A stretch of 64,000 bases of DNA from Archangium gephyra. GTDB lineage: Bacteria > Myxococcota > Myxococcia > Myxococcales > Myxococcaceae. Shown here piece after piece: positions 46,152 to 48,422 of the stretch. Position numbers and translations under genes: made by a program. Under the pieces are notes generated by a model. The model worked only from the letters and a program-made list of their open reading frames with translations. It made no database searches and had not been told where the DNA came from. Numbering within the stretch: position 1 is the stretch's first letter; each line of letters begins with the position of its first letter. Location: positions 4,038,501 to 4,102,500 of the forward strand of contig NZ_CP011509.1 of assembly GCF_001027285.1 (NCBI RefSeq), read 5' to 3'.

Positions 46152-46156
46152 TTCAT

Positions 46157-46232
<76 letters not shown>

Positions 46233-46262
46233 CAGCAGCACCGCGGTAACGGAGAGGATTGG

Positions 46263-46339
46263 GTGCCAGTAGCTCAGCTGGATAGAGCATCGGCCTTCTA
46301 AGCCGAGGGTCGTGGGTTCGAGTCCCGCCTGGCGCGCCA
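46263..46339 (+). tRNA. tRNA-Arg (anticodon TCT)
   Basis: Acceptor GTGCCAG/CTGGCGC with one T-G pair, D arm GCTC/GAGC, anticodon stem TCGGC/GCCGA with loop CTTCTAA, T arm GTGGG/CCCGC, discriminator G. The CCA end (46337-46339) is encoded, unlike the tRNA before it. Reads AGA/AGG, rare codons in this genome. Confidence 0.95.
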
Positions 46340-46443
46340 CCATCTTCGTCGTGACAAAAGGGGCTTGAACCGTAACGGTTTCCACGGTAGGGAAGCCGCC
46401 ACGTTTCAGCGCGGTTGTTCCAGCGCGAGTTGTTCGTCGTAAC

Positions 46444-46518
46444 GGCGGCCATAGCTCAACTGGTTAGAGCGCAGGACTGTGACTCCTGAGGTTACCGGTT
46501 CGATCCCGGTTGGCCGCC
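46444..46518 (+). tRNA. tRNA-His (anticodon GTG)
   Basis: Eight acceptor pairs (GGCGGCCA with TGGCCGCC) place G at -1 opposite C73, the histidyl identity element. Anticodon stem CAGGA/TCCTG with loop CTGTGAC, T arm ACCGG/CCGGT. CCA not encoded. Confidence 0.95.
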
Positions 46519-46539
46519 CTTCTCATCCCCCCGCTTTTC

Positions 46540-46613
46540 GCGCCTATAGCTCAACTGGATAGAGCATCGGCCTTCGAAGCCGAGGGTTGGGGGTTCAAGT
46601 CCCTCTGGGCGCA
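46540..46613 (+). tRNA. tRNA-Arg (anticodon TCG)
   Basis: Acceptor GCGCCTA/TGGGCGC with one T-G pair, D arm GCTC/GAGC, anticodon stem TCGGC/GCCGA with loop CTTCGAA, T arm GGGGG/CCCTC with TTCAAGT, discriminator A. The D arm and anticodon stem match the TCT tRNA-Arg 200 bp upstream closely, suggesting shared origin. Confidence 0.94.
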
Positions 46614-46616
46614 CAG

Positions 46617-46640
46617 CAGCACCCCCTTGCGAGGGTGCTG
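46617..46640 (+). terminator. Hairpin after the four-tRNA array
   Basis: CAGCACCC (46617-46624) pairs with GGGTGCTG (46633-46640), an 8-bp stem with an 8-nt loop, 4 bp after tRNA-Arg. No T-tract follows on the plus strand. It also lies 20 bp beyond the convergent recombinase gene. Confidence 0.5.
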
Positions 46641-46659
46641 CCGCGGACTCCTCACCAGC

Positions 46660-47876
46660 TCAGGCCTTGGCGTCCACCGCGGGAACGCGGCAGCGCAGCT
46701 CGGCCTCGGTCTCGAGCGCGGCGAGGTTCTCGCGCATCGGCCGGGCCCACTTCGCCTTGGGCTGCTCCATCAGCTTCTCGTGAGCCAGGTCGATCGTCTC
46801 GGCCAGCTCCTCGTCGCTGAGCTCCGAGGCCGTCTTGCCCTTGTGCGGACCGAAGGCCACCACCACCGACGAGCTCTTCAGCTTCGCCGGAGCCTCCAGG
46901 GCCGGTGCTGCCGGCTCGGTGGCCGGAGCGGGCTCCGGGTGGGTGTCCTTGGCCTTCACCTCGGACTTCACCTCGGCCTTCACGTCCTTCGCCTTGGCGG
47001 TGTCCTTGGCCACCACGGGCTCGCGGACCTCCTTGGCGGAGGTGGCCGCGGGACGCGCCTTCACGGACTCCCGGACCGGCTCGGGTTCCCGCACGGTCTC
47101 CCGGTGCGGCTCCTTGGCCTGCACCGGAGCCGGTGCTGGAGCGGGCTCCTTCTCCTCACGCGCCTCACGGGGGGCCGTGGACACGGGAGGGAAGGACGCC
47201 TTCACGGGGCCCGGACGCGTGCCCAGCACCTCGTAGCCGCCGTGCCCTGACGCGGGCTCGGCCTGCGCCGGCTCGAACTCCTCGGCCGGCATCTCCTCGC
47301 GCACGTACAGTCCGCCGAAGGCCTCGGGGTATGCCTTGCGCAGTGCCGCCACGCGCGCGCACTTCTCGATCATCGTCGTGGGAATCTTGGCCCACAGCGG
47401 CGTCTGCTGGACGTAGCCCGCGAAGTCCAGCCACACCACCACCGGCAACTTCCCATCCCGCACCACGCGCGACCAGGCTCCCACCAGGCTGCCCTTGCGC
47501 TTGGCCGGGTTGAAGCGGTGCAGCACCTCGCCCTGGCCCTGGTCCACGATGATCTCATCCTCGGCGTACACCGCACTCGCCTGGATGCCCTTGAAGTCCG
47601 GGAAGCGCTCCGCGCGCGCCAGCATTCCCGCCTCCGAGGGCTGGAACTCGTAGCGCGTCACCCAGTTGGGCTTCTCCCGGTTGCCCGCGTTCTGCCGGCG
47701 GGCCACGCAGAAGGCCTCCTTGAGCAACGGGTCCAACCCGGAGCGCTTGCACTGCTCGATGAAGAGGGCGAACTCGTCCTCCCCGATGCCTCGGGGCAGA
47801 TGGTCCGCTTGATGAGTTCCACGCGCTCGGGGCTCCACTGGCCCGACGCCGTCTCTGCCTTGTTGTGTGCTTCCAT
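46660..47876 (-). pseudogene. bet: Bet/RecT-family phage-type recombinase, frame broken by a -1 shift
   Basis: A single-strand annealing recombinase split over two frames. The first frame runs from ATG at 47876 (MEAHNKAETASGQWSPERVE, then LIKRTICP). At the C4 run of the coding strand (47793-47796) the homology jumps to the -1 frame, RGIGEDEFALFIEQCKRSGL, and continues to the stop at 46660. The joined product would be about 405 residues, with Bet/RecT marks GSLVGAWSRVVRDGK, TTMIEKCARVAALRKAYPEA and GLYVREEM, an Ala/Lys/Glu/Pro-rich linker and a C-terminal domain (VVAFGPHKGKTASELSDEEL). A one-base deletion, a sequencing error or programmed slippage on C-CCC are all possible. It lies alone between tRNA genes, with no exonuclease partner. 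Confidence 0.8.
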
Positions 47877-48143
47877 GCCGCTGCTCTGTCTCCGCCTGCG
47901 AAAAGGGCGAACGACCTCCGTCCGCCCGCACCTCGGGGAGGATTCAACCCTGGACGGCGTGCGTTGGCATCCCGATACTGAACACCCGTCCAGCGCCAGC
48001 TCGGAGGGCGGACAGGCTCAGCGCAGGGGCTCTGGAGGGGTTGCGCGGGGGTCCGAAAAAAAGCATTTGACGTGGGCCGCGTCGCACCGTACAAGCCGTC
48101 CCCGTCGACGCGCGGTGACGAACCGCCGCGGCGCACAAGAGTC
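47877..48143. other. Intergenic region between the recombinase and tRNA-Lys
   Basis: 267 bp without a gene. It should hold the recombinase promoter on the minus strand, where I see no clear consensus, and the tRNA-Lys promoter on the plus strand. A run of seven A at 48056-48062 precedes the latter. Confidence 0.5.
48067..48095 (+). promoter_or_regulatory. Promoter of tRNA-Lys
   Basis: TTGACG (48067-48072) and TACAAG (48090-48095) are 17 bp apart, with an A-run just upstream that could act as an UP element. Transcription would begin about 42 nt before the tRNA. Confidence 0.6.
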
Positions 48144-48216
48144 GGGAGCGTAGCTCAATTGGTAGAGCAATGGACTCTTAATCCATAGGTTGTGGGTTCG
48201 ATTCCCTCCGCTCTCA
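48144..48216 (+). tRNA. tRNA-Lys (anticodon CTT)
   Basis: Acceptor GGGAGCG/CGCTCTC with one G-T pair, D arm GCTC/GAGC, anticodon stem ATGGA/TCCAT with loop CTCTTAA, T arm GTGGG/CCCTC (one T-T mismatch) with TTCGATT, discriminator A. CCA not encoded. Confidence 0.95.
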
Positions 48217-48220
48217 ACAG

Positions 48221-48262
48221 ACCGGGGCCCCTTCAGCGATGAGGGGGCCCCGGTTCCTTTTT
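48221..48262 (+). terminator. Strong rho-independent terminator after tRNA-Lys
   Basis: ACCGGGGCCCC (48221-48231) pairs perfectly with GGGGCCCCGGT (48244-48254) around a 12-nt loop, followed directly by TCCTTTTT. It is the clearest intrinsic terminator in the window. Confidence 0.92.
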
Positions 48263-48324
48263 GGGGTCCTGGATTGCCGTGCGCCGGGCTCCCGTTTTCG
48301 GGTTAGAACGCACGGTCAGCCCCC

Positions 48325-48406
48325 GGGCGGGTGGCGAAACTGGTAGACGCGCCAGACTTAGGATCTGGTACCGCAAGGTGTGAGGGTTCGAGTCCCTCCT
48401 CGCCCA
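48325..48406 (+). tRNA. tRNA-Leu (anticodon TAG)
   Basis: A class II tRNA of 82 nt. Acceptor GGGCGGG/CTCGCCC with one G-T pair, anticodon stem CCAGA/TCTGG with loop CTTAGGA, long variable arm (TACCGCAAGGTGT), T arm GAGGG/CCCTC with TTCGAGT, discriminator A. CCA not encoded. Confidence 0.95.
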
Positions 48407-48422
48407 CTCCGGCCATTTCGCG

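Follow-up and report, generated by a model that had tools for sequence, protein, structure and literature searches.

The recT gene of Archangium gephyra, as assembled, is split over two reading frames at a run of four C (C4). We consider it probable, at roughly three chances in four, that this run is a homopolymer undercall of the assembly and that the chromosome carries an intact recT. The missing base is most likely an error and not a mutation. An intact chromosomal gene would contain a run of five C (C5), of which the assembly reports one too few; the split of recT would be an artefact of this undercall, and the 'slippery' CCC codon at the site would be the remnant of the C5 run after the loss of one C. 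The error is best supported because the break is found in this assembly alone among those read, the C run is one base shorter than in the two best-scoring congeners (genomes G001 and G004), and two breaks of the same style were found within 800 kb. A sequence-only reading of the site had placed decay, error and programmed slip side by side. Of these three, the error is favoured by our analysis, whereas old decay disagrees with the dN/dS values and programmed slip with the single frame in relatives, the lack of a slippery heptamer and the predicted downstream fold (z -0.21).

The recT gene and its frame break

The window is a stretch of 64,000 nucleotides (positions 4038501-4102500 of a single contig of 12,489,432 bases, genome G000), and we take the sequencing platform of its record to be PacBio. 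The Bet/RecT gene lies on the minus strand, from an ATG at 47876 to a stop at 46660, and its frame break is genuine in the assembled letters. Frame 0 reads MEAHNKAETASGQWSPERVELIKRTIC-P, and from the C4 run (47793-47796, minus strand; GGGG on the plus strand) onward the gene continues in the -1 frame. The frame-0 piece with the ATG start (47658-47876, minus strand) encodes 72 amino acids, MEAHNKAETASGQWSPERVELIKRTICPEASG..., and stops at a TGA at 47658. Its first 28 codons (MEAHNKAETASGQWSPERVELIKRTICP; to ...TIC-P) are homologous to the relatives, and the rest is out of frame. The remainder of recT (46660-47811, minus strand) reads ...HLPRGIGEDEFALF... in the -1 frame as far as the stop at 46660; in the upstream direction this frame stays open back to a GTG at 47931. 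The 15-mer around the C4 run occurs a single time in the window. A frame break at this run had been proposed from the sequence within 47780-47810, and it is confirmed here, with the break proper at 47793-47796. The two accompanying claims held as well: the junction costs no residue, given that the relatives have ...TICP-R/K-GI... in a single frame, and the gene is intact past the break, where the -1 frame stays open to its stop and carries the RecT domain.

This RecT/Bet domain (47269-47784, minus strand; converted from residues 10-181 of the RecT-frame protein P0002) exceeds the curated cut-offs of both PF03837 (E 3.9e-39, 134.7 bits versus 24) and TIGR01913 bet_lambda (86.4 bits versus 76.95), and the product thereby belongs with the RecT/Bet single-strand annealing proteins. 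It is the one match to the family in the window's own assembly. On the 5' side the gene is flanked by tRNA-Lys(ctt) and tRNA-Leu(tag) (48144-48407, plus strand), an arrangement that is the same in all 29 relatives for which loci were obtained (L003-L031). The recT locus (46156-48407) adjoins trigger factor, clpP and clpX, and tests of six neighbouring genes recognised neither an exonuclease nor a prophage gene. In contrast to the RecT/Bet annealing proteins that it resembles in its domain, recT here stands alone on the chromosome with tRNA genes on both sides, and its product carries a conserved C-terminal segment behind a long linker of low complexity. The gene seems to encode a Bet protein that has been domesticated and inherited vertically in this family. 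Such a lone tRNA-flanked Bet protein was not named in the paper titles returned by a literature search, which covered titles only.

The C-terminal segment (KLKSSSVVVAFGPHKGKTASELSDEELAETIDLAHEKLMEQPKAKWARPMRENLAALETEAEL; window 46660-46885, minus strand) follows the low-complexity linker, has no Pfam domain and is found at 60-84% identity in most relatives outside the genus (39% in one row). In G018, a stretch at C25:59100-59357 matches this segment alone and represents a second copy away from the tRNA locus. Pyxidicoccus caerfyrddinensis has two recT loci, one flanked by tRNAs (L038) and a second one that lacks them (L042).

The site and the gene in related genomes

The RecT-frame protein was searched in 116 genomes including the window's own. 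Matches were obtained in 40 of these, two of them weak (G072 and G106), and the best-matching genomes belong to the genus Archangium, in which recT is present in 6/6 genomes. The 76 genomes without a match all lie outside this genus. In every one of the 29 relatives with loci, the site continues the frame of the codons upstream of it, and its variants are TGC CCC CGN GGN, TGC CCC AAG/AGG GGN and TGC CCD CGN GGN (D = G, A or T); this count refers to the 29 loci, as the other matches of the protein search came without loci. A second, overlapping set of 13 recT loci (genome_contigs) gave one frame in 12, of which 11 fit the same motif search and one (L043) has a variant motif, while the thirteenth (L039) starts inside recT, where it is cut by the contig end. 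The comparison of the orthologous site thus speaks against a programmed slip, since the break is not conserved in 29/29 relatives and 12/13 genome_contigs loci. Among the relatives read, the break is unique to the window's assembly and lies within the C run, that is, it occurs in one assembly only and in a homopolymer, the mark by which a homopolymer error is recognised.

In G001 and G004, the congeners with the two highest scores, the run is C5 (TGC CCC CGN) and not C4 as in the window. G002, G003 and G005, congeners with CCC AAG, also have C4, yet they are in frame. Judged by dS of the RecT domain, G004 is nearest to the window, and G005 and G002 are nearer than G001. G004 (locus L004) agrees at the site with A. 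violaceum Cb vi76 (L032). G001 is A. lansinium MIWBW, for which PMC10435759 names A. gephyra DSM 2261 and Cb vi76 as the strains of greatest similarity. An exact pattern scan of viral_contigs for an independent copy of the C4 site gave 0 matches, and a scan of genome_contigs returned relatives with the window's own strain absent; own-genome records may be excluded from both, so neither scan is evidence on the strain.

We compared substitution rates behind the break. For the RecT domain, dN/dS of the window genome versus five congeners was 0.039-0.087, and the ten pairs among these five intact congeners gave 0.049-0.129. The tail of recT showed 0.30-0.42 in pairs with the window genome versus 0.25-0.46 in pairs of intact congeners. 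Among eight sequences compared, the changes unique to the window genome in the RecT domain were one synonymous and no non-synonymous. These data show that recT is a gene under strong purifying selection. As dN/dS behind the break is like that of intact congeners, the gene is not an old pseudogene; old decay was rejected, the RecT-domain values of the window genome lying in the range of intact pairs with no drift towards 1. An undecayed RecT domain would fit an error, or an event too recent for further change.

One-base breaks elsewhere in the assemblies

We screened 800 kb of G000 for frame breaks against the same-place stretches of G003 (800 kb), G001 and G002 (400 kb each). The query genes that could be tested against G000 numbered 100 (G001), 193 (G003) and 111 (G002), in overlapping sets. 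In a first version of the screen, antisense open frames of the high-GC DNA produced many hits; this version was replaced by GC3-selected open reading frames and then by the stricter 800-kb version, which asked for GC3 >0.75 on both sides of the break and a one-base gap in the DNA alignment that is not shared.

Under this filter three genes are broken in G000, each lacking a single base within or next to a G/C run: recT, a DTW-domain gene at about 4,122,850, where GGGCGGGG is reduced to G7, and an asparaginase gene at about 4,364,430, where GGGGGCG is reduced to G6. The latter two are unbroken in 5/5 congeners and split in G000 only among the six Archangium genomes. Breaks of this type were also found in other assemblies. 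An SNF2-type gene is split in A. lansinium only among the six genomes (G001:C1, about 9,785,690), with 94% and 99% identity to the G000 copy on the two sides of the break, and a YdjC-like gene is broken in G003, which has one base more than G000 and G001. The SNF2 matches in G002, G003 and G005 contain one TGA within the matched stretch.

By target, the same filter gave three one-base breaks in G000, one each in G001 and G003, and none in G002, over unequal lengths and with an excess too small for a test. Left out of this count by hand despite GC3 >0.75 were G003_276 in G000 (many indels near the gene start), G003_440 (split alike in G000, G001 and G002, so that G003 is the odd one) and G003_396 in G002 (before the probable start of the gene). 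Further one-base G/C-run differences in G000 fell below the filter and were not counted: two at offsets of about 15,700 and 155,464 in the 400-kb set, and G002_204 at about 252,385, with GC3 of 0.72 on one side. As a weak control for decay, in-frame stops were counted. In G000 there were three from each of the G001, G003 and G002 gene sets (nine in total, four after the GC3 filter), versus 6, 5 and 8 in G001, G003 and G002 as targets (2, 3 and 3 after the filter). By inspection, the four stops that remained in G000 appear to be either close to the query's 5' end or in antisense-looking open reading frames.

One-base breaks in single assemblies and in G/C runs are what residual consensus errors look like. 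Errors that fragment genes are well known from long-read assemblies (e.g. Kastor, PMC12007338), and the recT case resembles such indels in the loss of one base of a homopolymer, in a single assembly, from an otherwise intact gene. Two points weigh against the undercall. The count of three breaks is small and the G000 assembly is not shown to be worse than the others. Moreover, none of the three broken genes is shown to be essential, so a real mutation keeps some probability.

Deletion, re-organisation or ribosomal slip

We rank the undercall first and a very recent real deletion second. In the latter case, loss of one base from the C5 run of the strain would have inactivated recT, and the rest of the gene would have had no time to decay. 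This is unlikely, at about one chance in five, and it shares part of its support with the undercall: of the genomes read, no other has the break, and an undecayed domain is equally compatible with a very recent event and with an error. One-base replication slippage at short C runs is ordinary, and loss or absence of recT is tolerated in the wider group, where it appears survivable because 76/116 genomes, all non-Archangium, lack a match. However, a recent loss requires a coincidence, because the gene is found in all six genomes of the genus, is under strong selection and occupies the same tRNA-flanked place in all relatives with loci. In addition, the two same-style breaks in 800 kb are better explained by a technical cause shared with recT.

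A programmed or tolerated -1 slip, in which tRNA-Pro on CCC would re-pair with the C4 run after a backward step of one base and translation would go on in the RecT frame, is very improbable. Its geometry is possible, as a step back on CCC makes CGA the next codon with no residue lost, and a tRNA-Pro gene (tgg) is present in the window. However, a slippable CCC remains whenever any C5 run loses one C, and therefore this geometry is not independent evidence. No relative whose site was read needs the shift, and this includes relatives with a run of equal length (CCC AAG) and with a longer run (CCC CGN). Programmed -1 ribosomal frameshifting is recognised by a slippery heptamer of the form X XXY YYZ, whereas the zero-frame context at recT is C TGC CCC. 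The downstream fold was no better than that of shuffled sequences, 79/200 of which were at least as stable, when one 85-nt stretch beginning one base before the C run was folded at this single length and without pseudoknots. Finally, tRNA-Pro is known to shift at CCC, and in the accessible literature shifts of this kind go in the +1 direction where a direction is given (e.g. PMC7577736); the likeness lies in the CCC codon within a C run, but recT would require -1, the opposite direction. Conservation, site type and fold thus all led us to reject a programmed slip. Should the four C be real and full-length RecT nevertheless be made by a -1 slip on CCC, with neither heptamer nor predicted structure, a frameshift site would have newly arisen here and would make up for the deletion of one base, which we regard as highly doubtful.

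Equally improbable is an old pseudogene or a re-organised gene whose RecT frame would start at its own upstream GTG: the frame is open to the GTG at 47931 and a second GTG lies 15 codons before the CGA, but the RecT-domain dN/dS matches the low values of intact pairs with no unique non-synonymous change among the eight compared, no Shine-Dalgarno-like GGAGG was seen by eye in the 20 bases before either GTG, and the ordinary ATG and first 28 frame-0 codons are retained.

With the undercall as the preferred reading, the recT break is a worked case of a homopolymer undercall that imitates a recoding site; it is an ordinary finding of little biological weight. If the four C are true, recT, which is strongly selected in the congeners, would either have been lost naturally in this strain or be rescued by a compensated frameshift of a rare kind.
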